From contig JANQSA010000082.1 in the NCBI GenBank assembly GCA_028284285.1, forward strand, positions 62,001 through 126,000: a stretch of 64,000 bases of DNA, in the 5' to 3' direction. A model generated the notes under the pieces. The model made no database searches. It was given only the letters and a program-made list of their open reading frames with translations, and was not told the DNA's origin. This DNA comes from Croceivirga sp. (GTDB lineage Bacteria; Bacteroidota; Bacteroidia; Flavobacteriales; Flavobacteriaceae). This document shows, piece by piece, positions 19,774 through 63,086 of the stretch (positions are counted from its first letter, which is position 1; the number at the start of each line of letters is the position of its first letter). The translations under genes and the position numbers were made by a program.

Positions 19774-22176
19774 CTATTCAATATCTATCTCCTTTTTGTA
19801 GGCTTCCACTTTTGCGGTGACCTCTTCTTTGGTAGCCCCCACAAATTCCTTTACCTGCTCGGTAATTTCCCCTGCTACTTCTGTAGAAGTCGTCACTACA
19901 GCTTTGAAACTGCCATCTTCGGTATTGCTCATTTCGACGCGAATTTGCTTTTCTACCTCCTTGGATTCCTTTATGCCATCTACAGTAATGGCCACTGTGG
20001 TGCCATCCTCTTTTACAATACTCACCTCATCCTTTTGCGCCATGCTTACTAAACTTGGTGCTATTACCAGAGCTACTACACTCATCAACTTCAACAAAAT
20101 GTTAAGGGAGGGCCCGGAAGTATCTTTAAACGGATCTCCTACGGTATCACCAACAACGGCAGCTTTATGGGCATCAGAGCCTTTACGGCCTTCGCCCTCA
20201 ATGGTCTTTTTGGCATTATCCCAGGCCCCGCCCGCATTGGATTGGAAAATGGCCATCAATACTCCTGCAGTAGTTACGCCGGCTAAAAGACCACCCAGCA
20301 TATTCGCGCCGCCCAGGAAACCTACAGCAACAGGTACTGCAATGGCCAACAAGCCCGGCAATACCATTTCTTTAATGGATGCCGTAGTTGAAATCTCTAC
20401 GCATTTTTCATATTCAGCAAGGCCATCGGCAGCTTCAAAAACCTCCATATCCGCTTTGGATGCCTTGGACAGATCAGAATCATATTTGCGCATTATTTCC
20501 AAAGCAGCTTTTAACTGAGGAATATCCCGGAACTGTCGTCTTACTTCCTCGATCATGGACATTGCAGCGCGACCCACAGCTTTCATAGACAAGGCAGAGA
20601 AAACAAAAGGCAGCATCCCTCCTACTAACAGTCCTGCCATGATCTTAGGCTGGGACACATCTATAGAAGTTACCCCGGCAGTCTTCATATAAGCAGCAAA
20701 CAAGGCCAGAGCCGTTAAGGCCGCAGAAGCTATGGCGAAACCTTTCCCAATTGCTGCGGTGGTGTTTCCTACCGCATCTAATTTATCGGTGCGCTCCCTA
20801 ACCTCACCGGGTAACTCTGCCATTTCCGCAATTCCACCGGCATTATCTGAGATAGGTCCGTAGGCATCTACTGCCAATTGAATACCTGTGTTGGCTAACA
20901 TACCCACAGCGGCAATGGCAATACCATATAAACCCGCGAAATGATGTGAGACCAAAATAGCCCCGGCAATTAAAATAATAGGGATCATGGTAGACATCAT
21001 GCCCACGCCTAAACCGGCAATGATGTTGGTGGCTGAACCGGTTTCAGATTGGCGCACTATGGAATTCACAGGCTTGGTCCCCGTACCGGTATAGTATTCC
21101 GTGATCTTACCTACCGCCAAACCGGCGACCAAACCGGCAATGGTGGCCCAGAACACGCCCATAGATGTAAATTCTTTTCCACCATCCACCCAGGATTCGG
21201 GAAGCATTCCTGTAATGAGAAAGTAAGAGGCTACCAACATTAAGCCTGCGGAACCAAACTCACCGATATTCAATGCCGTCTGTGGATTACCCCCGTCTTT
21301 TACACGAACAAAGAACGTTCCAATGATAGACATTACAATTCCTACCGCTGCTAATGCCAAAGGCAGATATACGGCTCCCAGGCCGTCAAAGGAATCTGCA
21401 AAAGCCGGGTTGGCAGCAAAAATGCCGCCCAGCACCATGGTTCCTATAATAGATCCCACATAAGATTCAAAAAGGTCAGCTCCCATACCGGCAACATCGC
21501 CAACGTTATCCCCAACATTATCGGCAATCGTAGCCGGATTAAGCGGGTGATCTTCCGGAATTCCGGCTTCTACTTTACCTACTAAATCCGCGCCTACGTC
21601 AGCAGCTTTCGTATAAATACCACCTCCAACACGGGCAAAAAGCGCTATGGATGAAGCTCCTAAAGAGAAGCCAGACAATACATTTAAAATCTCATTCAAT
21701 TCCCAACCCTGACCGCTGTAGATCATAAAAAGTCCGCTTAACCCCAATACGCCTAATCCTACCACACCAAGTCCCATTACAGAACCTCCGGCAAAGGCCA
21801 CTTCCAACGCTTTACTTAAGGAAGTCCTGGCGGCCTGAGTAGTACGTACATTGGCTTTGGTAGCTACCCGCATTCCGATAAAACCCGCTAAAGCGGAACA
21901 AATAGCACCTACGATAAAGGATACGGCTACCATACCATTAGAGCCCTCTTCATTTTGCCCCTTAAAGAATAGCAGAACGGCTACGGCAGCTACAAAAACA
22001 GCTAATATTTTATATTCCGCTTTTAGGAAGGACATCGCCCCATCGGCGATGTTTTTCGCAATGTTTGCCATCTTCTCCCCACCGACTTCCTGTTTGGATA
22101 CCCAAATGTTCTTCACCAACACATACAACAGCCCCAAAACACCAAAAGCGGGCAAAAAATTAATGATTACATCCAT
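19774..22176 (-). CDS. hppA: Membrane-bound ion-pumping pyrophosphatase
   Basis: An 800-residue membrane protein with about 16 helices. The PPi-binding signature [19 protein letters not shown] and the [20 protein letters not shown] motif are intact. The [10 protein letters not shown] segment has the Ala typical of potassium-dependent enzymes, so Na+ (possibly H+) pumping is likely. The ATG at 22176 ([11 protein letters not shown]) is preferred; the longer frame adds 31 residues across the promoter. The C-terminus carries about 90 extra acidic residues after the last helix, predicted to face the periplasm, longer than in most family members. It follows ppa, but has its own promoter after the ppa terminator. 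Confidence 0.94.
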
Positions 22177-22224
22177 AGTTAATTCGTTAATTATTAGGTT
22201 TTTCTTAAGATTTTTTAATGGCTG

Positions 22225-22232
22225 CAAATGTA
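22225..22232 (-). promoter_or_regulatory. -7 box of the hppA promoter
   Basis: TACATTTG on the minus strand matches TAnnTTTG and lies 48 bp before the chosen hppA start, after the ppa terminator. This supports the internal start and separate transcription. Confidence 0.5.
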
Positions 22233-22250
22233 GTAAAATACGCATGAATA

Positions 22251-22286
22251 AAAAAAGCCCATTCAGCAAGGAAAATGGGCTTTTTT
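22251..22286 (-). terminator. Terminator after ppa
   Basis: AAAAAAGCCCATT (22251-22263) pairs with AATGGGCTTTTTT (22273-22285) around a short loop; U-run follows on the minus strand. Confidence 0.85.
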
Positions 22287-22945: not shown

Positions 22946-25441
22946 TCAAAAACTAAATCCAAACGTTCCGGTTACCCCAAAAGGTCGGGCCTCAGGAGCA
23001 TCCAGGTAGTTGCCCCTGAAGTTGAAATCGAGACGAAATATCTTAAAGATATTGCCGATACCAAAAGAGTATTCCCAATAGGGTTCATCATTCGGAGCCT
23101 GAAGTGGAATATTTGAGGGGGCGCTAAGGGCAATGTTTTCATCGGAAATAGAACCCCAGGCTCCTCGTATCCCCACTATCTCCCTTAAATTCAATTTACG
23201 GAGCAAAGGGATCCTTGAGAATAACCTCCCGTTAAAGTTATGTTCCAGGTGTACCGTGGCATAGGTATCGGTAACAAACTCGTAAAAGTCCAAATTGGGG
23301 AAAGTGTTGTACAAGGAGAAAACCGTTTGGTTACCGGGAATAACACTTAGAAGCCCCAGAGGAACTTCGCCAAATGTCCTTCCTAGCTCAACAGTACTCA
23401 CCAGTCTTCCAAAGCCCCCTAATTGCCAGGGTTGGGTATAAGAGAATTGCAAGCGTTGATAATCAAAATCACTTTCCAGAAACCCTTCCGTACCCTGGGT
23501 GTAATTCAATACCAAAGTACTGTGGTTATCATTAATGGTATTGCGTTCTACCCCATACCCTATGGTTCTCCTTCCCGGAGTGTAGATCACTGTGGTGTTC
23601 AGATCAAATTGCTTGACTTCAGAGGAAATCCCACCCGGAGCATCCGGATCAACGTAGTCCAGACTAAAGGCATCCGGTAGAGCAGAGCTTAAGGTACGAA
23701 AGGCTCCCCCCAATCGAAACCTCAGGTTACGAAAAGGCTCCATTTCCAATGATAACACGGAAAGGTTAATATTGCTTAAGCGATCGTTGTTCCCTACGGT
23801 GACCAGAGCGGATGAGGCAATACTTCTACCAAGAACATCGGTAGTACTGGTAAGGTTAATCCCCAATTGTTCTATATCCCGCCTGTTACCCCCCGAAACA
23901 ATTAAGCGGGTTTTCCGATCCAGCAAAAATTTCCCGGAGAAACCATGCTTAAATTTCCGGTCGTTAAAACCATAAGCCATGTATCCTTCTAACCGCCAGG
24001 TATCGTTCTGTCCAAAATAGGTTCTTGCTCCACCCCTTAGCCGGATACCTTCCGCATCGTTAAAACCAAAAGTGCTGTAGATATCACCAATATCCAGGTT
24101 CCATTTATCTATCTCTACATAACCCGAACCCAAAATGCTGACAATATCGTAGTAGGTCCTGAACTTGGGAACGGTTTGTAGTGTATCCAACAATTTAAAA
24201 ATACCGGATTCGTCTTCACTTAATTGTTCCAGTCGGGCCTTTTTCCAGAAAAGGCTGTCCTGGCTAAATACTCTTGGGTCATACGGATCGGATTGCGACT
24301 TATAAAAATCTTCCGGTCGATCCAGATCAAAATTATAGTTGTCATACACTGTTGTGCGTTTGCCATACACCCCTCTGGAAGTTTCTTTTTTTGAAAAGGC
24401 AAAATCCGTGAGCATATAGTCCCGCTTCAGCAAAAAGACAGAATCGTTTACTACCTCAAAATCCTGCTCTATGTAAATCTCTTTTACCCAGTTGATATTA
24501 GCACTTTTTACCACTTCCATGTTAATTTTTTTAATGGCAAAAGTGGTATCGTTCACCCAAAAATCCCCCTTAAAGGTCAGTTCGTTTTTCCGGCGGGGAT
24601 AGTAAATAATATTGTAGCACCATTTGTTGTCGATAAAGGTGCTGTCCGACAGCACATAGTTGTATACGTCTACACCAGTTCTGGATAATGGACTGGTAAA
24701 ACTCTTATCAAAGAATTTTAAGTAGTTTTCATAAATATCATAATCAGAATACAAGTCTTCCACAAAAGCAGTAATGGCTTGGTTTCCCCCAAAACCAGAG
24801 CTTTTGTTACCCAATACATCCTCTTTTTCCAACTGTAGGCGATTATCGCCATACACTTTGGAAAACACCTCGTTCAAAAACATGGGCAAATACGTTTTTC
24901 CGGTTATCCGGGAGGTATCCAAACCGGCGAACATGAATTCCAGCCCCTTAAATAATCTACTTTTAATCAGGGCACTATCAATGGTATTCAGGTCAAACTC
25001 TACTTTCTCATACTTGTCATACTGGTAACTTTTAAACTTGCGCACCCCATTCTCTCTTTTTTTTGCCCAAATTTTCTTCAGTATATCTATTGCCGGATTA
25101 TTCTTTTTGGATTGCTTTCCCGTGTACACCACCACTTCCTGTAATTGCTCTGCAGACTCCACAAGAACTACCCGCATATTGTAATTCACACTGCTGCTCA
25201 ATTCAATTTCCTGGGTATCATACCCAATAAAAGATACTACCAGTACAGTATAATCATTATCCGATTCAAAGTAAAAACGTCCGTTATCGTTCGTGATGGC
25301 ACCTTCCGTAGAGTTTTTGAAAATGACATTGGCAAATGCAACAGGATCTCCAGATTCATCAACCACTACCCCCCCCACTTTGGTTTGGGAAAAAAGAGTA
25401 ACAGACAAAAGGATAGAAAAAACAACAAGGAATCTTTTCAT
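22946..25441 (-). CDS. DUF5686 outer-membrane protein with N-terminal carboxypeptidase-regulatory-like domain
   Basis: An 831-residue exported protein. A signal peptide (about 1-19, ending LFSQ) is followed by a CarboxypepD_reg-like beta sandwich (about 22-100: VGGVVVDESGDPVAFANVIFKN) and a long DUF5686 region. The second half has alternating amphipathic strands and ends in a terminal Phe (TGTFGFSF), as expected for a beta barrel in the outer membrane. Function is not established for the family; a role in envelope transport is plausible. It is followed by no close partner. Confidence 0.85.
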   Translation of the reverse strand: MKRFLVVFSILLSVTLFSQTKVGGVVVDESGDPVAFANVIFKNSTEGAITNDNGRFYFESDNDYTVLVVSFIGYDTQEIELSSSVNYNMRVVLVESAEQLQEVVVYTGKQSKKNNPAIDILKKIWAKKRENGVRKFKSYQYDKYEKVEFDLNTIDSALIKSRLFKGLEFMFAGLDTSRITGKTYLPMFLNEVFSKVYGDNRLQLEKEDVLGNKSSGFGGNQAITAFVEDLYSDYDIYENYLKFFDKSFTSPLSRTGVDVYNYVLSDSTFIDNKWCYNIIYYPRRKNELTFKGDFWVNDTTFAIKKINMEVVKSANINWVKEIYIEQDFEVVNDSVFLLKRDYMLTDFAFSKKETSRGVYGKRTTVYDNYNFDLDRPEDFYKSQSDPYDPRVFSQDSLFWKKARLEQLSEDESGIFKLLDTLQTVPKFRTYYDIVSILGSGYVEIDKWNLDIGDIYSTFGFNDAEGIRLRGGARTYFGQNDTWRLEGYMAYGFNDRKFKHGFSGKFLLDRKTRLIVSGGNRRDIEQLGINLTSTTDVLGRSIASSALVTVGNNDRLSNINLSVLSLEMEPFRNLRFRLGGAFRTLSSALPDAFSLDYVDPDAPGGISSEVKQFDLNTTVIYTPGRRTIGYGVERNTINDNHSTLVLNYTQGTEGFLESDFDYQRLQFSYTQPWQLGGFGRLVSTVELGRTFGEVPLGLLSVIPGNQTVFSLYNTFPNLDFYEFVTDTYATVHLEHNFNGRLFSRIPLLRKLNLREIVGIRGAWGSISDENIALSAPSNIPLQAPNDEPYWEYSFGIGNIFKIFRLDFNFRGNYLDAPEARPFGVTGTFGFSF

Positions 25442-25591: not shown

Positions 25592-26572
25592 TTACCCCTT
25601 ATATAACACTTTCTTAACAGCTTTGATCACGTCTTCGGAATTTGGTAACCACTCTGCCAACAATACAGGAGAATAAGGTGCAGGTGTATCTGCGGTATTC
25701 AGCTTAACTATGGGGGCATCTAAATAATCAAATGCTTTATCCTGGACCTGATACGTGATCTCAGTAGCCACATTACCAAAAGGCCAGGCTTCTTCCAGGA
25801 CTACCAGGCGATTGGTTTTCTTTACCGAGTTCAAAATAGCTTCGTGGTCCATAGGCCTAACCGTTCGCAAATCAATAATCTCGCAGCTTATCCCTTCTTC
25901 TTCCAGTGCATCAGCGGCTTTGTAGGCTTCTTTTATAATTTTTCCAAAAGAAACGACGGTCACATCCGTGCCTTCCCGTTTAATTTCGGCTACCCCAATC
26001 GGAATGGTATATTCGCCTTCCGGTACTTCACCCTTATCCCCATACATCTGTTCCGATTCCATAAAGATCACTGGGTCATCATCCCGGATGGAAGCCTTAA
26101 GCAATCCTTTAGCATCAGCTGGGTTAGAGGGGACTACTACCTTAAGCCCCGGGCAGTTGGCAAACCAACTTTCAAAAGCTTGAGAATGCGTTGCCGCCAA
26201 TTGGCCGGCAGAAGCAGTTGGCCCTCTAAAGACAATAGGGCAGTTGAATTGCCCCCCGGACATCTGTCGTATCTTGGCAGCGTTGTTGATAATCTGATCA
26301 ATTCCCACCAGGGCGAAATTAAAGGTCATAAATTCTATAATAGGCCGGTTCCCGTTCATGGCGGAGCCTACCCCCACTCCGGCAAACCCCAATTCCGAAA
26401 TAGGCGTATCAATCACCCGATCCGCACCAAATTCGTCTAACATTCCCTTGGAGGCCTTATAAGCACCATTGTATTCCGCTACTTCTTCCCCCATCAGGTA
26501 AATGGTTTCGTCACGTCGCATTTCTTCGGACATGGCCTCGGCTATAGCTTCCCTAAATTGTATGGTTTTCAT
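25592..26572 (-). CDS. pdhB: Pyruvate dehydrogenase E1 component, beta subunit
   Basis: A 326-residue transketolase-type beta subunit with MGEEVAEYNGAYKASKG near residue 27, RVIDTPISELGFAGVGVG, and the C-terminal DAPIVKLNTADTPAPYSP. Together with the alpha subunit (not in the window) and TPP it decarboxylates pyruvate in the pyruvate dehydrogenase complex. A branched-chain 2-oxoacid E1 beta is the alternative, but the length and the YNGAYKASKG segment favour pyruvate. It is a single gene here, divergent from etfBA, with a long palindrome in between. Confidence 0.9.
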   Translation of the reverse strand: MKTIQFREAIAEAMSEEMRRDETIYLMGEEVAEYNGAYKASKGMLDEFGADRVIDTPISELGFAGVGVGSAMNGNRPIIEFMTFNFALVGIDQIINNAAKIRQMSGGQFNCPIVFRGPTASAGQLAATHSQAFESWFANCPGLKVVVPSNPADAKGLLKASIRDDDPVIFMESEQMYGDKGEVPEGEYTIPIGVAEIKREGTDVTVVSFGKIIKEAYKAADALEEEGISCEIIDLRTVRPMDHEAILNSVKKTNRLVVLEEAWPFGNVATEITYQVQDKAFDYLDAPIVKLNTADTPAPYSPVLLAEWLPNSEDVIKAVKKVLYKG

Positions 26573-26657
26573 AGAATAACAACGGTTTATAAAGTGCGCA
26601 CAAAAATAGGAAAATCTATAGGAAACCGGGGGTGTTGTGCCTCAAAAAAAGGATAAA

Positions 26658-26683
26658 AATTTATTATGCATGCATAATAAATT
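26658..26683. promoter_or_regulatory. 26-bp perfect palindrome upstream of etfBA, candidate activator site
   Basis: Core ATTATGCATGCATAAT; symmetry extends to 13 bp per arm. It overlaps where a -33 box would lie for etfB and its centre is 33.5 bp from the end of the -7 box. The same 16-bp core occurs at 55273-55288. Binding protein unknown. Confidence 0.7.
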
Positions 26684-26696
26684 CGATTGTTTTTAG

Positions 26697-26704
26697 TATC
26701 TTTG
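26697..26704 (+). promoter_or_regulatory. -7 box of the etfB promoter
   Basis: TATCTTTG matches TAnnTTTG 24 bp before the etfB ATG. No TTG lies 17-23 bp upstream; the palindrome occupies that place, which suggests activation. Confidence 0.6.
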
Positions 26705-26727
26705 CTCTTCGAAAAAAATAAGAATTT

Positions 26728-27474
26728 ATGAAGATATTGGTTTGCATAAGCAATGTTCCGGACACTACTTCAAAAATCAATTTTACGGCGGGCGATACCC
26801 AATTTGACACCAACGGGGTACAGTTTGTTATTAATCCTAACGATGAATTCGGGTTAACCCGTGCCATGTGGTTCAAAGAAAAACAAGGCGCTACGGTTCA
26901 CGTGGTAACTGTTGGGGATACCACCGTAGAACCAACGATTCGAAAGGCCCTGGCTATTGGCGCTGATGAGGGTATCCGTATTAACGTGGCACCTAAAGAT
27001 GGGTTTTATGTTGCAAGACAGTTAGCCGAAGTGGTGAAAAACGGAGGGTATGACCTGGTCATTGCCGGAAGGGAGTCGATTGATTATAACGGTGGAATGG
27101 TTCCTGGTATTATGGCTGCGTTGCTGGACATGAATTTTGTAAACACTTGTATTGGGCTTGAAATTGATGGTACCCAAGCAACGGCCTTCCGGGAGATTGA
27201 TGGTGGAAAAGAAAAAATAAGCACCAGTTTACCTTTAATTATTGGTGGTCAGAAAGGACTGGTTGAGGAGAGCGACCTCCGTATTCCCAACATGCGTGGC
27301 ATAATGATGGCAAGAAAAAAAGCCTTGAATGTGGTAGAGCCTGTGGACGCACCATCGCCAACAACAGATCAAAAATTTGAGCGTCCTCCGGCAAAAGGCC
27401 CGGTAAAACTTGTTGATGCCGGCAACGTAGAAGAGTTAGTGAATTTATTACACAACGAAGCAAAAGTGATATAA
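26728..27474 (+). CDS. etfB: Electron transfer flavoprotein, beta subunit
   Basis: A 248-residue EtfB starting MKILVCISNVPDTTSKI, with the family segments NPNDEFGLTRA, DLVIAGRESIDYNGGMVPG and a C-terminal lysine-rich tail. With EtfA it accepts electrons from acyl-CoA dehydrogenases and passes them to the quinone pool via ETF dehydrogenase. It is cotranscribed with etfA, 77 bp downstream. The gap between them holds a degenerate CAAATTCCAAAT microrepeat (27481-27508). Confidence 0.95.
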   Translation: MKILVCISNVPDTTSKINFTAGDTQFDTNGVQFVINPNDEFGLTRAMWFKEKQGATVHVVTVGDTTVEPTIRKALAIGADEGIRINVAPKDGFYVARQLAEVVKNGGYDLVIAGRESIDYNGGMVPGIMAALLDMNFVNTCIGLEIDGTQATAFREIDGGKEKISTSLPLIIGGQKGLVEESDLRIPNMRGIMMARKKALNVVEPVDAPSPTTDQKFERPPAKGPVKLVDAGNVEELVNLLHNEAKVI

Positions 27475-27551: not shown

Positions 27552-28520
27552 ATGGCAGTACTAGTATATACCGAATCGGAAAACGGCAAATTAAAGAAAA
27601 GTGCTTCAGAGGTAGCCTCCTATGCTAAGCATGTAGCGGAACAATTGGGGGGCAGTGTTACCGCAGTAGCGATCAATGCAGAAGATACAATCGCTTTGGG
27701 CACTAATGGCGTTTCAAGAATACTAAATGTGTCCGATGAGGCCTTACGTAATTTCAATGCGAAAGCATATGCCAATGTTATCGCTCAGGCGGCAGAGACG
27801 GTAAGTGCCAAGGTGGTGATTTTGAGCTCCAGCGCCGATAGTAAGTATTTAAGTGGCCTCCTTGCGGCTAAACTCAATGCAGGATATGTTCCCAACGTAG
27901 TAGCTCCTCCGGAAAGCACTTCTCCTTTTGTAGTGAAGCGCACGGCATTCAGCAATAAGGGTTTTGCGTTAACAGAGATTAGCTCGGAAACAAAGATCAT
28001 TGGGGTCTCTAATAATTCCTATGGTATTGTAGAAAATGCTACCGACGCCACCATGGAAGATTTTTCCCCGGCAATCAATGATGGCGACTTCAGTACCAAG
28101 TCTGTTGAGGTAGACAAAGTAGTGGGCAAAGCCACTATTGCAGATGCCGATATTGTAGTATCCGGTGGCCGTGGGCTAAAAGGCCCTGAGAATTGGGGGA
28201 TGGTAGAAGAACTGGCCGATCTACTTGGAGCCGCTACTGCATGTTCCAAACCCGTTTCGGATTTAGGCTGGCGGCCCCATGGAGAACACGTAGGCCAAAC
28301 CGGAAAACCGGTAGCCAGCAACCTCTACATTGCTATTGGGATATCAGGCGCCATACAACACCTGGCGGGAGTAAGCGCATCCAAAACCAAAGTAGTCATC
28401 AATAGCGATCCCGAAGCCCCTTTCTTTAAAGCAGCAGATTACGGGATAGTGGGGGATGCCTTTGAGGTGGTTCCCGAACTCATCGAAAAATTAAAGGAAT
28501 TTAAAGCACAAAACGCCTAA
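27552..28520 (+). CDS. etfA: Electron transfer flavoprotein, alpha subunit
   Basis: A 322-residue EtfA. The C-terminal FAD-binding signature is clear: VSGGRGLKGPENW, DLGWRPHGEHVGQTGKPVASNLYIAIGISGAIQHLAG. It binds FAD and pairs with EtfB as electron carrier in fatty acid and amino acid oxidation. Regulation is probably through the palindrome before etfB. Confidence 0.96.
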   Translation: MAVLVYTESENGKLKKSASEVASYAKHVAEQLGGSVTAVAINAEDTIALGTNGVSRILNVSDEALRNFNAKAYANVIAQAAETVSAKVVILSSSADSKYLSGLLAAKLNAGYVPNVVAPPESTSPFVVKRTAFSNKGFALTEISSETKIIGVSNNSYGIVENATDATMEDFSPAINDGDFSTKSVEVDKVVGKATIADADIVVSGGRGLKGPENWGMVEELADLLGAATACSKPVSDLGWRPHGEHVGQTGKPVASNLYIAIGISGAIQHLAGVSASKTKVVINSDPEAPFFKAADYGIVGDAFEVVPELIEKLKEFKAQNA

Positions 28521-53773: not shown

Positions 53774-54487
53774 ATGACCCGATTAAGTGTTAATATCAAT
53801 AAACTGGCCACTTTACGTAATTCCAGGGGAGGAAATCTACCGAACATTGTAGCGTCCGCCCAAGATATTGAATCCTTTGGTGCTCAAGGTATTACTATCC
53901 ATCCCAGACCGGATGAACGCCACATACGCTATCAGGATGCCCGGGACCTGAAACCGGTGGTAAGGACAGAGTTCAATATTGAAGGCAACCCTATACCCAG
54001 GTTCATTGATCTGGTCTTAGCGGTAAAGCCTACTCAGGTTACCCTGGTACCGGATGCGGAAGACGCCATTACTTCAAACGCCGGTTGGGATACCATAAGA
54101 CATAAGGATTTTTTGATAGAGGTAATCCAAACCTTCAAAGAAAATGGAATTCGCACCTCAATTTTTGTAGATCCTGAGGTAAAAATGATAGAAGGTGCTG
54201 TAGTCATCGGAACGGATAGAGTAGAACTCTACACGGAAAGCTATGCCAGGGACTTTGCTATGGGTAACCTACAAGGTATTACTCCTTATGTGGAAGCCGC
54301 TAAAGTAGCTAACAACCTGGGACTGGGTTTGAATGCCGGTCACGATTTGAATCTGGATAACATACACTATTTTAAGGAACATATGCCGCATTTATTGGAA
54401 GTTTCTATCGGACATGCACTCATTTGTGAATCCCTTTACCTGGGCCTGGAAAATGTGGTTAATATGTATCTGCAAAAATTGAAATGA
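53774..54487 (+). CDS. pdxJ: Pyridoxine 5'-phosphate synthase
   Basis: A 237-residue TIM barrel starting MTRLSVNINKLATLRNSRGG, with HPRPDERHIRYQDA, FNIEGNP and LNAGHDLNL, all family motifs. It condenses 1-deoxyxylulose 5-phosphate and aminoacetone phosphate to PNP; PLP is needed by several enzymes in this window. A frame reaching back to 53585 overlaps the promoter and is rejected. Overlaps the next gene by 4 bp. Confidence 0.96.
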   Translation: MTRLSVNINKLATLRNSRGGNLPNIVASAQDIESFGAQGITIHPRPDERHIRYQDARDLKPVVRTEFNIEGNPIPRFIDLVLAVKPTQVTLVPDAEDAITSNAGWDTIRHKDFLIEVIQTFKENGIRTSIFVDPEVKMIEGAVVIGTDRVELYTESYARDFAMGNLQGITPYVEAAKVANNLGLGLNAGHDLNLDNIHYFKEHMPHLLEVSIGHALICESLYLGLENVVNMYLQKLK

Positions 54488-55257
54488 GCCAAATCTTACA
54501 CTCCACAATACTGGGCAAAGGCACTCCCCTTTTAATTCTTCATGGATTTCTGGGCATGTCGGATAACTGGAAAACATTAGGCAACAAATATGCTGAGCAA
54601 GGACTCCAGGTGCATCTGATTGACCAGCGGAATCACGGTAGAAGTTTTCATGATGTTGTTTTTGATTACAACACTCTTGCAGCGGACCTTAGTGATTACA
54701 TGTCCTATTACAAATTGGAAAAGGCCCATCTGTTGGGACATTCCATGGGCGGAAAAACAGCCATGCAATTTGCTGTCCAAAAAGGCAGTCAAGTGGTAAA
54801 ACTTTTGGTAGCAGACATTGCGCCCAGATACTATCCACCCCATCATCAGAAAATTATTGATGCGTTGCTTACTTTGGATCTGGATAGGATTAGCAGCCGA
54901 TCTGAAGCCGATAGGCAACTTTCCGTACAAATTGATGACTTTGGTGTCCGTCAGTTTTTACTCAAAAACCTTTATTGGCGGGAAAGAGGAAAATTGGGTT
55001 TTAGATGTAACCTGGATATCCTGCAACATCGATTGAACGAAATAGGAGCGCCCCTGGCCGCAGATAGTACTTTTGAGGGTGCGACACTTTTTCTACGGGG
55101 CGGCCGATCCGATTATATACGTCCCGATGACCGATCGCTCATTGAAAGGCATTTTCCCAATGCCAGAATTAATACTGTAGAAAATGCCGGACATTGGCTA
55201 CATGCTGAAAATCCTACACAATTCTTCGAAAAATCAATCAGGTTTCTGAATTCTTAA
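54484..55257 (+). CDS. Alpha/beta hydrolase (YbfF-like esterase)
   Basis: A 257-residue hydrolase: HGFLGMSDNWKTLG oxyanion region, nucleophile Ser in LLGHSMGGKTA, acid in LRGGRSDYI and His in ENAGHWLHAENP. Resembles E. coli YbfF, an acyl-CoA/ester hydrolase. It is translationally coupled to pdxJ (ATGA), a conserved pairing in flavobacteria, but the substrate is unknown. Confidence 0.9.
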   Translation: MSQILHSTILGKGTPLLILHGFLGMSDNWKTLGNKYAEQGLQVHLIDQRNHGRSFHDVVFDYNTLAADLSDYMSYYKLEKAHLLGHSMGGKTAMQFAVQKGSQVVKLLVADIAPRYYPPHHQKIIDALLTLDLDRISSRSEADRQLSVQIDDFGVRQFLLKNLYWRERGKLGFRCNLDILQHRLNEIGAPLAADSTFEGATLFLRGGRSDYIRPDDRSLIERHFPNARINTVENAGHWLHAENPTQFFEKSIRFLNS

Positions 55258-55272
55258 AAAACCCCTGTTTTT

Positions 55273-55288
55273 ATTATGCATGCATAAT
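55273..55288. promoter_or_regulatory. 16-bp palindrome upstream of the GDSL lipoprotein, same as at etfB
   Basis: ATTATGCATGCATAAT, identical to the core of the 26-bp palindrome at 26658-26683. Its centre is 54.5 bp before the end of the -7 box, exactly 21 bp (two helical turns) further than at etfB. Confidence 0.7.
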
Positions 55289-55304
55289 TTTTTCATGTCT
55301 TTCA

Positions 55305-55335
55305 TTGCGGGACTAATAAATTTCCGCTAGTTTTG
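55305..55335 (+). promoter_or_regulatory. Promoter of the GDSL lipoprotein gene
   Basis: TTG (55305-55307) and TAGTTTTG (55328-55335) with a 20-bp spacer match the Bacteroidota consensus; start of transcription about 50 bp before the ATG. Confidence 0.7.
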
Positions 55336-55388: not shown

Positions 55389-56906
55389 ATGAAGAAGTAC
55401 TTTGCTTTGCTCCCGCTAGTGGGCCTTTTGCTGGTGGGCTGCGATGACGATGATCCGACAACGGACGATATGCAGATGGACACGGTGCCCGTTACCAGCG
55501 GCTCAGCAGATTTTTCAACATATGTTGCCCTGGGCAACTCTTTAACAGCAGGATTCTCAGACAACGCCCTATTTCGCATGGGTCAGGAAGCCTCCTTCCC
55601 CAATATGTTAGCAAGCAATTTTGCGTTGGCCGGGGGAGGAAACTTTGAAATTCCGTTCATGGCTGATGATTTGGGTGGAGCTACACTCGATGGGGATCCT
55701 TTTTTGGGTAATCGGTTTATTCTTTCTTTTGCAACGGGTGATCCCACCCCGGTTATGTTAGAAGGTATGGGCGCTACGGAAATCTCGCAAACACTCTCGG
55801 GGTCGTTTAACAATATGGGGGTTCCCGGCGCTAAAAGCTATCATTTGCTAGCGCCAGGATATGGCAATGTAGCCGGTGTGGCTGCAGGACTGGCTAATCC
55901 TTATTTTGCTCGTTTTGCTTCCTCTCCTGAGGCTACCATCTTAGGTGATGCTGCAGCTCAGAATCCAACATTTTTCTCTCTTTGGGTAGGAAACAATGAT
56001 GTATTGGGGTATGTTGTTGCCGGTGGTGCCGGAGTAGACCGAACCGGGGATCCAAACTTCGCTATGTATGGAGGGTCAGACATCTCCGATCCAAATGTGG
56101 TTGCGGGGGCTATTGATGCAATACTGCAACAAATGGAGGCTTTAGGCGCTCAAGGTGTAATTGCCAATCTTCCCGATGTGACCAGCATTCCTTTTCTTAC
56201 TACAGTACCCTATAACCCGGTTCCCCTGGATCCGGCAACAGCAGATTTGTTAAACGCTGCTTATGCGGCCTATAACGGCGGACTTGCACAACTCACTCAA
56301 GTAATTAATCCCCTTACCAATGAGCCTTTTATTTCAGTGGAGGAGGCTACGAGAAGAACTATCTCATTTGAAGCGGGAGCAACCAATGCCGTTGTGCTTA
56401 TTGATGAGGATCTAACGGATCTAACCGCTGTTAATCCCGCGTTAATTAATATGCGGCAATCGACTCCTGAAGATCTTTTAGTATTGCCCTCTAGGACCTT
56501 TATAGGAACGCTGGCGAACCCTGCCGACCCTACCTCCATTAATGGCGTAGCTGTCCCCCTATCAGACGAATGGGTACTGACTCCGGAAGAGCAAGTTGCA
56601 GCAAATACTGCTTTAAATGCCTTTAATCAGCTAATAGAGGGCCTGGCGCAACAATATGACCTGGCCTTCGTAGACGCCAATGCGTTGTTAACAGAACTTC
56701 GCGACTCTGGGTTTAGACTAGCGGATGGTAGCGTGGTTACCGCGGCTTTTGGCACCGGAGGCGGCTTTTCTCTGGATGGGGTGCATCCTTCACCAAGAGG
56801 TTATGCGATTATAGCCAATGCTTTTATCAATGCCATCAACACCAAGTACGAGTCCACCCTGCCCCTGGTAGATCCTTTGGACTTTACCGGACTTTATATC
56901 AATTAA
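55389..56906 (+). CDS. SGNH/GDSL-type hydrolase lipoprotein
   Basis: A 505-residue lipoprotein: lipobox LLLVGC (Cys18) followed by DDDDPTTDD, a surface-export type acidic run. The SGNH blocks are present: GNSLTAG (block I, nucleophile Ser), NMGVPGA (II), WVGNNDVLG (III) and DGVHPSPRG (V, Asp/His). It probably hydrolyses lipid or carbohydrate esters outside the cell. In related genomes such genes are often next to a FadL-type outer-membrane protein, not seen here. The upstream palindrome links it with etfBA. Confidence 0.88.
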   Translation: MKKYFALLPLVGLLLVGCDDDDPTTDDMQMDTVPVTSGSADFSTYVALGNSLTAGFSDNALFRMGQEASFPNMLASNFALAGGGNFEIPFMADDLGGATLDGDPFLGNRFILSFATGDPTPVMLEGMGATEISQTLSGSFNNMGVPGAKSYHLLAPGYGNVAGVAAGLANPYFARFASSPEATILGDAAAQNPTFFSLWVGNNDVLGYVVAGGAGVDRTGDPNFAMYGGSDISDPNVVAGAIDAILQQMEALGAQGVIANLPDVTSIPFLTTVPYNPVPLDPATADLLNAAYAAYNGGLAQLTQVINPLTNEPFISVEEATRRTISFEAGATNAVVLIDEDLTDLTAVNPALINMRQSTPEDLLVLPSRTFIGTLANPADPTSINGVAVPLSDEWVLTPEEQVAANTALNAFNQLIEGLAQQYDLAFVDANALLTELRDSGFRLADGSVVTAAFGTGGGFSLDGVHPSPRGYAIIANAFINAINTKYESTLPLVDPLDFTGLYIN

Positions 56907-60865: not shown

Positions 60866-61405
60866 TTATACCGCTGCTTTTGTCACCTGCTGCAACAGAT
60901 TCATGCAGACTTCTCCTATGATTTTTTCATCGGAATACAATTCGTGGCCAAAATTAGGGACGATATTGAGCGCTACACCTACCTCATCAGCCCATTCTAA
61001 ACCAGGTTTGTATTCATCACAATCCCCGTAAATGAGATGTATGTCGCAGTCAGGACTTTCGGTTTCAAAGCGAAGCCTTGTAGGTGAAATAGCTGTTAAG
61101 GATTTCATAGGCCAGCCACGTAAGCCTGCTTTCCAGGCTATTGTTCCTCCCATAGAGAAGGCCAGGACATGGGTAGGTTTGGTCTCCCTTTTTAACAAAT
61201 GCGCCACTGCAATATCTATTCCCCCATCAACAAAGGCCGCATGAATGTTCTCTTCGGTAAGTACCGGGACATCCAGGGTGGCTAATTGTTGAATATCATA
61301 AAATTGAATGTTGTAGTATTGTTGCAGGTAACCAAAATAAGAAGTGATCCAAAGTCCTTTTTTAATACCCCACATATCGGATAAGACAATTAATCTCTCA
61401 GCCAT
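60866..61405 (-). CDS. Alpha/beta hydrolase fold protein
   Basis: A 179-residue small hydrolase-like protein: nucleophile Ser in VLAFSMGGTIAWK, Asp in LIYGDCDEYKPG and His in VPNFGHELYSDE. The N-terminal LIVLSDMWGIKKGLW forms the oxyanion strand. Compact, without lid domain; substrate unknown. It is convergent with clpX; an imperfect hairpin (60834-60857) between them may end both transcripts. Confidence 0.82.
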   Translation of the reverse strand: MAERLIVLSDMWGIKKGLWITSYFGYLQQYYNIQFYDIQQLATLDVPVLTEENIHAAFVDGGIDIAVAHLLKRETKPTHVLAFSMGGTIAWKAGLRGWPMKSLTAISPTRLRFETESPDCDIHLIYGDCDEYKPGLEWADEVGVALNIVPNFGHELYSDEKIIGEVCMNLLQQVTKAAV

Positions 61406-61559
61406 AATCTAAAAGTGTATATTCATTGGTGATTCAAAAGTGTTTACAAAACGAAGTTTTCCCTAAAATATTGGTTTATCTGAATTTTTGTTCGATAAAC
61501 CGTCGAAAATTACGAAAACGTTTTCGTAAATCGATATTTCACTGTACAAAAAGTGACGA

Positions 61560-63086
61560 TTACTGTACAGATTGCATATTTAACCGAAGTAATTCCTCAA
61601 GATGTTCCCTGGAATTGGACAATCTGGGAATTTTGTGCTGTCCCCCCAGCTTGTTTTTAGATTTGAGCCAGTCGTAGAAGAGATCTTCCCGGGCTACATG
61701 CACGGTTGGCATTTTTAAAGTGATATTGTTATACCGTTTTGCTTCATAATCCGAGTTCAGTGATTTTAGGGCATTATCCATGAGTTCAGTGAAGTAATTT
61801 AAATTTTGCGGGGGATTGCGAAATTCAATCATCCATTCATGGGACCCCTTTTCACTCCCGTTCATAAAAATAGGAGCTGCCGTATAATCCTTGATCTCCG
61901 CCCCTGTTTTTACACAAACTTGCAGTAAGGCCTCTTCTGCATTTTCTATAATCAGCTCTTCGCCAAAAGCATTGATATAGTGTTTTGTCCTTCCTGTGAT
62001 ACGAATCCTGAAAGGATCTAAAGAGGTAAACCGGACCGTGTCCCCAATCTTATAACGCCATAATCCGGCATTGGTGGTGATGACCATAGCATAATTTACC
62101 CCGGTTTGTACCTCCCATATGGGCAAGACCTTTTTACTTCTTTCCCCGTTACAATCCACCGGAATAAACTCATAAAATATACCGTAGTCAAGCATTAACA
62201 ACAGATCCTCGGAATTGTTCCTATCCTGAATACCAAAAAATCCCTCCGAAGCATTATAGGTTTCATAATAGTTAAAACGCTTACGTGGCAATAGTTTTTT
62301 GTACTGCTCGCGGTAGGGTGCAAAACTCACACCACCGTGAAAATATACTTCCAGGTTTTCCCAGACTTCAAACAAATGATTCCTACCTGTCTTTTCCAAT
62401 ACATTGTTCAACAGTACCAACATCCAGGAAGGTACACCGGCCAGACTGGTTACATTTTCTTTAATGCTCTCCTCAATAATGGCATCCATTTTCTCCTCCC
62501 ATTCGCTCATTAAGGACACTTTATTACTGGGGGTACTGCTGTATTCCGCCCACAGCGGCATATTGTCTATAAGGATGGCGGATAAATCTCCAAAAAAACT
62601 CCCGTTGTCCTCATACAACTCCTTACTTCCACCTAAGCGAAGCCCTTTACCCGTAAAAAGCTGCGAATTTTCGTTATTGTTAAGGTACAAACAGAGAAGG
62701 TCCTTACCGGATTTATAATGACAGTCTTCCAGGGCTTCCATGCTTACCGGGATAAACTTACTTTTGGCATTGGTAGTGCCACTGCTTTTCGCAAACCATT
62801 TGATATGTGTTGGCCAAAACAAGTTTTGTTCTCCTTGCCGGGTACGTTCTACTGTGGGGGCAATATCCTCATAGCTCACCAAAGGCAAACGTTCCGCAAA
62901 GGTCTCATAGGTGTTGATGGACTCAAAACCGTAATGCCTTCCTATCTCCGTGTTTTTGGCATAAGAAAGCAGTTGCTGCAACAGTTCTTTTTGTACATCC
63001 ACAGGATATTTTAAAAACAACTCAATTTGATGATACCGTTTTTTAAGCAACCAGGAGGCAATAGAGTTGAATAAGGGTATTGGCAT
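61560..63086 (-). CDS. GH3-family acyl-acid amido synthetase-like protein
   Basis: A 508-residue member of the GH3 auxin-responsive promoter family (ANL adenylate-forming superfamily). Motifs include WFAKSSGTTNAKSKFIPVS (ATP-binding P-loop-like), YYETYNASEGFFGIQD and GLWRYKIGDTVRF. Plant members conjugate hormones to amino acids after adenylation; bacterial ones are uncharacterised. It is transcribed alone. A tandem TAGCTAGCTA lies 15 bp before its start (63100). Confidence 0.9.
   Translation of the reverse strand: MPIPLFNSIASWLLKKRYHQIELFLKYPVDVQKELLQQLLSYAKNTEIGRHYGFESINTYETFAERLPLVSYEDIAPTVERTRQGEQNLFWPTHIKWFAKSSGTTNAKSKFIPVSMEALEDCHYKSGKDLLCLYLNNNENSQLFTGKGLRLGGSKELYEDNGSFFGDLSAILIDNMPLWAEYSSTPSNKVSLMSEWEEKMDAIIEESIKENVTSLAGVPSWMLVLLNNVLEKTGRNHLFEVWENLEVYFHGGVSFAPYREQYKKLLPRKRFNYYETYNASEGFFGIQDRNNSEDLLLMLDYGIFYEFIPVDCNGERSKKVLPIWEVQTGVNYAMVITTNAGLWRYKIGDTVRFTSLDPFRIRITGRTKHYINAFGEELIIENAEEALLQVCVKTGAEIKDYTAAPIFMNGSEKGSHEWMIEFRNPPQNLNYFTELMDNALKSLNSDYEAKRYNNITLKMPTVHVAREDLFYDWLKSKNKLGGQHKIPRLSNSREHLEELLRLNMQSVQ

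Follow-up and report, generated by a model that had tools for sequence, protein, structure and literature searches.

A conserved palindrome upstream of etfBA as the very probable binding site of a MarR-type regulator of fatty-acid breakdown in flavobacteria

In the flavobacterium Croceivirga sp., the electron transfer flavoprotein genes etfBA are preceded by a 26-bp perfect palindrome (AATTTATTATGCATGCATAATAAATT) whose 16-bp core (ATTATGCATGCATAAT) recurs, letter for letter, before a gene for a GDSL-family lipoprotein. Such a pair of sites raises the questions of which protein would recognize them, which genes they would join, and in which direction these genes would be controlled. The original prediction, drawn from a window of 64,000 nucleotides, i.e., the whole stretch of DNA that was analyzed, assigned both genes to a lipid-degradation regulon and read the two sites as class II and class I activator positions separated by two helical turns. 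Comparison with the remaining genome and with related genomes makes it very probable that a MarR-type protein docks at the palindrome and thereby controls the genes of fatty-acid breakdown in flavobacteria.

Within the window, both copies were recovered as described (Table 1), and a search allowing up to three mismatches returned no further copy of the core. The gene calls for etfB, etfA, and the GDSL lipoprotein agree with Pfam, and the N-terminus of the latter (MKKYFALLPLVGLLLVGC) resembles a lipoprotein signal by eye. The palindrome centre lies 33.5 bp from the end of the −7 box at etfB and 54.5 bp from it at the GDSL gene, which reproduces the reported difference of 21 bp. The reported disparity between the two promoters also holds: a TTG located 19–20 bp before the −7 box is absent at etfB and present at the GDSL gene.

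Table 1. Features of the window that bear on the two palindrome copies (positions are counted from the first nucleotide of the window).
Feature	Position	Strand	Basis or remark
Candidate operator, etfBA promoter: 26-bp perfect palindrome	26658..26683	.	core 26663-26678
-7 box TATCTTTG of etfB	26697..26704	+	sequence; usual -33 region lies within or next to the palindrome
etfB, electron transfer flavoprotein beta subunit	26728..27474	+	Pfam ETF
etfA, electron transfer flavoprotein alpha subunit	27552..28520	+	Pfam ETF and ETF_alpha
Transketolase-family gene, probably pyruvate dehydrogenase E1 beta, divergent from etfB	25592..26572	-	Pfam
Candidate operator, GDSL lipoprotein promoter: 16-bp palindrome	55273..55288	.	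kept before GDSL orthologues
T-run directly 3' of the GDSL palindrome	55289..55293	+	expected place of UP element / alpha-CTD site
-33 TTG, GDSL promoter	55305..55307	+	20 bp before the -7 box
-7 box TAGTTTTG, GDSL promoter	55328..55335	+	sequence and conserved spacing
GDSL lipase/acylhydrolase-family lipoprotein	55389..56906	+	Pfam
Alpha/beta hydrolase gene just 5' of the GDSL operator	54484..55257	+	Pfam; context only

The intergenic region at 26573–26727 places the first palindrome between etfB and the divergent, probable E1-beta gene, and the site may touch both. A candidate box of the E1-beta gene (TATTTTTG) is found 61–63 bp from the site centre in 11 sites of the same genus, while the candidate −7 boxes of three sites outside this genus lie at 51, 51, and 112 bp. 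Elsewhere in the window, a 20-bp perfect palindrome at 61510–61529 (TTACGAAAACGTTTTCGTAA), whose 14-bp core has no second copy in the window and which we take to resemble a LacI-type operator, is neighboured by a 179-residue ORF without Pfam match (60866–61405, minus strand) and a GH3-family gene (61560–63086, minus strand). Two minus-strand ORFs of equal length (831 residues) occupy 19774–22269 and 22946–25441, the second of which carries DUF5686 and a carboxypeptidase-regulatory-like domain.

Across the 4.82-Mb genome, the core occurs in four exact copies and one single-mismatch copy. Markov models of order 1–3 trained on the window predict 0.001–0.003 exact copies and 0.06–0.13 copies at up to one mismatch, compared with the four and five observed, an excess that is not due to chance. 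A single two-mismatch copy lies inside a coding region, and the reversed core pattern gave no match in the same genome at up to two mismatches. The five sites precede etfB, the GDSL gene, a gene for a TonB-dependent receptor (L001, L037), a divergent pair of an acyl-CoA-thioesterase-like gene and a nitronate monooxygenase gene with the site between them (L005, L038), and a gene for a MarR-family protein of 149 residues (G000:C79:139034-139480), whose site lies 34 bp before the gene start (L004, L036).

This last site supplies what had been anticipated, namely a regulator of the MarR, TetR, or CRP type with the palindrome before its own gene. The protein matches the MarR winged helix domain (PF01047, E 4.2e-11; PF12802, E 4.8e-9), and no NCBIfam equivalog reaches its cut-off for it. 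Its gene heads a same-strand cluster that continues, as identified by NCBIfam for the three named enzymes, with a FadB-type 3-hydroxyacyl-CoA dehydrogenase/hydratase, a 178-residue protein, a thiolase, and an acyl-CoA dehydrogenase, so that the fad genes expected from a genome-wide search were also found. Just 5' of the MarR gene lie an ORF of 82 residues and one of 589 residues, the latter resembling a long-chain acyl-CoA ligase by eye. The proposed lipid-degradation regulon is supported by the genomic sites before the MarR-FadB-thiolase-acyl-CoA dehydrogenase cluster, etfB, the thioesterase gene, and the TonB receptor gene, as well as by the conservation described below. For the GDSL protein and the TonB receptor, protein family and shared site suggest a link to lipids.

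Conservation was assessed in several sets of genomes. Among the matches listed, the core was present at up to one mismatch in 37 of 60 genomes, the source genome included, and the ten other members of the genus carried five to eight copies each. MarR orthologues (E < 1e-20) occurred in 46 of the 60 genomes, and their distribution follows that of the site: 36 of the 37 site-bearing and 10 of the 23 site-less relatives had one, again among the matches listed (Fisher test, 2.5e-6, which ignores phylogeny and genome size). Ten relatives thus combine a MarR orthologue with no site at up to one mismatch. Genome G046 shows the reverse, a single-mismatch site (L063) and no MarR orthologue, and this site possibly arose by chance.

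Upstream of MarR itself, 47 regions from the 60 relatives were compared by their best match, and 45 of them had the site at up to three mismatches. One miss is a region truncated close to the end of its contig (L162), the other an additional, weaker MarR copy within one genome (L166). The best 80 of 569 relatives, from Muricauda, Maribacter, Arenibacter, Flavobacterium, and other Flavobacteriaceae, gave a consistent picture. The site preceded MarR at the same threshold, again by best match per region, in 78 of the 79 named loci with enough upstream DNA. FadB followed MarR in all 80 loci, each of the 73 with enough flank also had thiolase and acyl-CoA dehydrogenase downstream, and an acyl-CoA ligase gene lay 5' of MarR in 76 of 80. 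The candidate operator is the palindrome TTTATTATGCATGCATAATAAA with the core TATGCNNGCATA. In the 20 best-matching MarR loci of the class (best match per region), four of which belong to the source genome, its family, or its order, TATGCNNGCATA was found before MarR in 19, including 15 of the 16 outside the order. A degenerate 16-mer occurred in 11 of 119 genomes sampled across the class, all of them among the 57 with a MarR orthologue (P 1.8e-4, ignoring ancestry and genome size). The remaining 46 genomes with MarR lack that 16-mer, their sites having diverged or, as at L353, being missing.

The site before etfB is conserved in related species as well. Of 397 family genomes, 150 combine site, −7 box, and etfB start codon, and among the matches listed, 244 of 299 carry the site together with a −7 box; the reversed control had no match in either survey. 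In the wider surveys, the reversed control yielded one match in each of four of the 60 genomes and in one of the 119 class genomes, and none otherwise.

Of 119 distinct sites, 111 adjoin a target family and eight have no recognized target, a proportion that describes the regulon and does not test it because the families were picked from the same flanks. Scoring a site between two genes for both, the neighbours were MarR (28), TonB receptor (18), etfB (17), divergent E1-beta (14), GDSL (12), nitronate monooxygenase (12), KAS III-like (12), Fe-S reductase-like (8), thioesterase (6), outer membrane proteins (3), and FadB (1). A FadL-type porin, which the original prediction had expected, was among the targets in one relative. 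The KAS III/FabH-like gene is a recurrent neighbour (L045, L055, L087, L111, and others), with sites mostly 50–90 bp before the start, and its promoters usually lack a canonical −7 box. A divergent gene that is CRP/FNR-like by eye lies next to one distant nitronate-monooxygenase site (L079).

To compare promoters, we used the distance d from the site centre to the first base of a predicted −7 box, TAnnTTTG, an element located at −12 to −5 in a flavobacterium (PMC9723704). At MarR promoters, d is 17–18 bp in 34 of 47 regions of the 60 relatives (best match per region) and in 72 of the 79 named loci among the best 80 of 569. Fe-S gene promoters gave 16–18 bp in seven of eight cases, and the FadB promoter gave 18 bp, with another candidate box at 7 bp; in all of these groups, the palindrome lies over the −33 region. 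Nitronate monooxygenase promoters showed 24–25 bp within the genus and 13–17 or 109 bp in more distant genomes. At the thioesterase gene, the site is downstream of the candidate −7 box in four of six promoters, and in the remaining two the only candidate overlaps the palindrome.

At etfB, where the −33 element is absent, d is 25–26 bp within the genus wherever a canonical box was found. The family-wide distribution is 25 (4), 26 (6), 27 (61), 28 (13), 29 (29), and 30 bp (2), counted over 115 of the 150 rows with a looser box (TAnnTTnG) and with many near-identical congeners left out by no fixed rule. Two etfB promoters of another family have a candidate box at 20 bp, and nine of 17 etfB promoters lack a canonical −7 box at the expected place.

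The GDSL promoters form a class apart in position. Twelve of 12 fetched sites had d values of 46–47 bp (47 bp in the source genus), and a recount over 22 loci from 16 genera gave 44 (one), 45 (two), 46 (11), and 47 bp (eight), with the farther box used in the six of 22 loci that have a second candidate at 36 bp. All 22 loci show TTG-N19/20-TA. The palindrome is followed by at least five T in all 12 GDSL promoters compared; the search pattern behind the 22-locus set itself required the T-run. This pattern of T-run and box matched in 32 of 397 genomes (reversed control, 0), and the 30 loci kept, with genome G370 left out, comprise 22 GDSL genes with one site and eight MarR promoters with two. 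In nine tandem MarR rows, the near site lies at d 17 and the far site at d 45–47, 28–30 bp apart. These tandem-palindrome promoters (L242, L247, L253, L254, L257, L260-L262) come from several genera of the family and indicate that the upstream position also serves as an auxiliary site at an autoregulated promoter. TonB promoters appear GDSL-like by eye, with a non-canonical box at about 45 bp; TAnnTTTG itself was found in none of 18. Since the canonical −7 box is missing in many TonB, KAS III, and etfB promoters, their spacings are uncertain. The two-turn relation on which the original prediction was built thus stands for the genus, where etfB (25–26 bp) and GDSL (47 bp) keep a near-constant helical phase, and is not conserved in the family, since etfB spacing drifts by 5 bp while GDSL varies over 44–47 bp.

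Comparison of sequences establishes where the sites lie, which genes they precede, how far they are conserved, how they are linked to MarR, and into which spacing classes they fall. From these patterns, we infer DNA binding by MarR, repression, and a ligand, and consider it likely that the palindrome is the operator of an autoregulated, ligand-released MarR repressor of fatty-acid oxidation. One MarR dimer would bind per palindrome. When no lipid signal is present, it would cover the −33 region of its own and the etfBA promoters as well as the transcript start of the thioesterase gene and thereby repress all three. Release by a fatty acid or an acyl-CoA is suggested by the nature of the targets. 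Repression is the most likely mode because the site has a blocking geometry at the MarR, etfBA, Fe-S, and thioesterase promoters.

At the GDSL and TonB promoters, MarR would bind beside the T-tract, some 46 bp upstream of the −7 box. The predicted start is about 59 bp away from the GDSL site (and, by eye, from the TonB site), a distance at which a simple blocker would not reach the core promoter, and repression, which is most likely here also, would act by covering a UP-element-like tract or through a second dimer. This upstream position, with its 44–47-bp spacing, intact −33 element, and T-run, is the only one compatible with activation, to which we give about one chance in three. The fixed GDSL spacing favours contact with RNA polymerase, whereas intact −33 and −7 elements, the position shared with MarR promoters, and the economy of a single response favour repression. 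A dual mode, which we regard as possible and rather doubtful, would combine both: MarR would repress the fad cluster, ETF, and Fe-S reductase-like genes from −33 and activate the GDSL and TonB genes from about −59 via alpha-CTD on the T-tract. Foraging would then be active as long as burning is shut down, and the two would swap as acyl-CoA rises.

The original account of the pair, an activator acting from a class II position at etfB and a class I position at the GDSL gene, we consider unlikely. It would explain the 21–22-bp offset between etfB and GDSL spacings within the genus, the missing −33 element at etfB, the T-tract between site and −33 at the place expected for alpha-CTD, and a GDSL spacing that stays fixed while box-to-start distance and intervening sequence vary. 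However, the 25–30-bp range of etfB spacing over 115 rows does not fit it, a GDSL promoter with intact −33 and −7 elements needs no activator, and the tandem MarR promoters use the same upstream position for their second site. Strict spacing itself is weakened as proof of activation, since spacing is about equally uniform (17–18 bp) at the MarR promoters, which are more likely to be controlled by blocking. The repressor geometry at the MarR promoters, with sites over −33, and at most thioesterase promoters leaves the class I/class II pair unsupported.

It is quite improbable that another regulator binds the palindrome, with the MarR gene as just one target among others. Binding by MarR is deduced from position and co-occurrence, and G046 bears a site without a MarR orthologue, yet the MarR-upstream site is the most constant member of the set, retained at 15 of the 16 loci compared from beyond the order, and 11 of 11 motif-bearing genomes of the class sample carry MarR.

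Very little speaks for reading the GDSL copy as an intrinsic terminator that serves the upstream hydrolase gene and has nothing to do with the etfB copy. Its palindrome is followed by a T-run, begins 15 bp after the stop codon of that gene, and has an alpha/beta hydrolase gene next to it in 22 of 22 GDSL loci. Against this, the hairpin is predicted at −2.4 kcal/mol, compared with −12.2 kcal/mol for a separate terminator-like stem upstream of the TonB site, and site, spacing, and −33/−7 elements are kept before the GDSL gene in 22 of 22 loci; for want of a stable G+C-rich hairpin and in view of this conservation, the terminator was rejected. A chance coincidence of two AT-rich palindromes has a negligible probability and was rejected on the copy excess, the near-zero reversed control, and the conservation in relatives: perfect palindromes of 20–22 bp did arise in four of 30 simulated windows, but none of the 30 contained one of 26 bp.

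MarR repressors encoded beside catabolic operons are a familiar kind, and some members, relatives of CouR, respond to CoA-type ligands. HcaR, CouR, and PcaV share with the protein described here the MarR domain, a gene beside a catabolic cluster, and a palindrome over their own promoter. In contrast to these, the targets here are beta-oxidation genes, etfBA, and surface genes scattered over the genome, and the protein resembles members of solved structure only distantly (MarR, 1.3e-8; HcaR, 1.3e-7; PcaV, 9.4e-7; CouR, 2.7e-5). The circuit is unusual for its kind in phylum, target set, and site layout. FadR (GntR) and PsrA/FadP (TetR) of Proteobacteria likewise tie fatty-acid-degradation genes to one regulator, but belong to other protein families and another phylum, the present regulator being a MarR protein. 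FadR both represses and activates. The regulators of fatty-acid degradation named for Proteobacteria in one account are GntR and TetR proteins (PMC5343134), and FadR of Sulfolobus acidocaldarius has fatty-acid metabolism in common and differs as an archaeal TetR protein (PMC6449355). In the journal literature searched, most of it open-access, no paper contained the exact core and no MarR fatty-acid regulon of Bacteroidetes was found; TATGCATGCATA was matched in an irrelevant paper on a worm. The palindrome and its probable regulator mark a widespread control circuit that is apparently undescribed in this literature.

For a major bacterial group of seas and fresh waters, in which the literature searched named no regulator of fatty-acid breakdown, the comparison provides a candidate operator, a candidate regulator, and a list of targets, with a motif simple enough to make regulon prediction feasible in many genomes. 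In Flavobacterium psychrophilum, beta-oxidation genes are described as highly up-regulated with fish mucus and plasma in a report whose main text does not contain the word MarR (PMC9723704). This induction would fit the release of a repressor and thereby gains a candidate mechanism.
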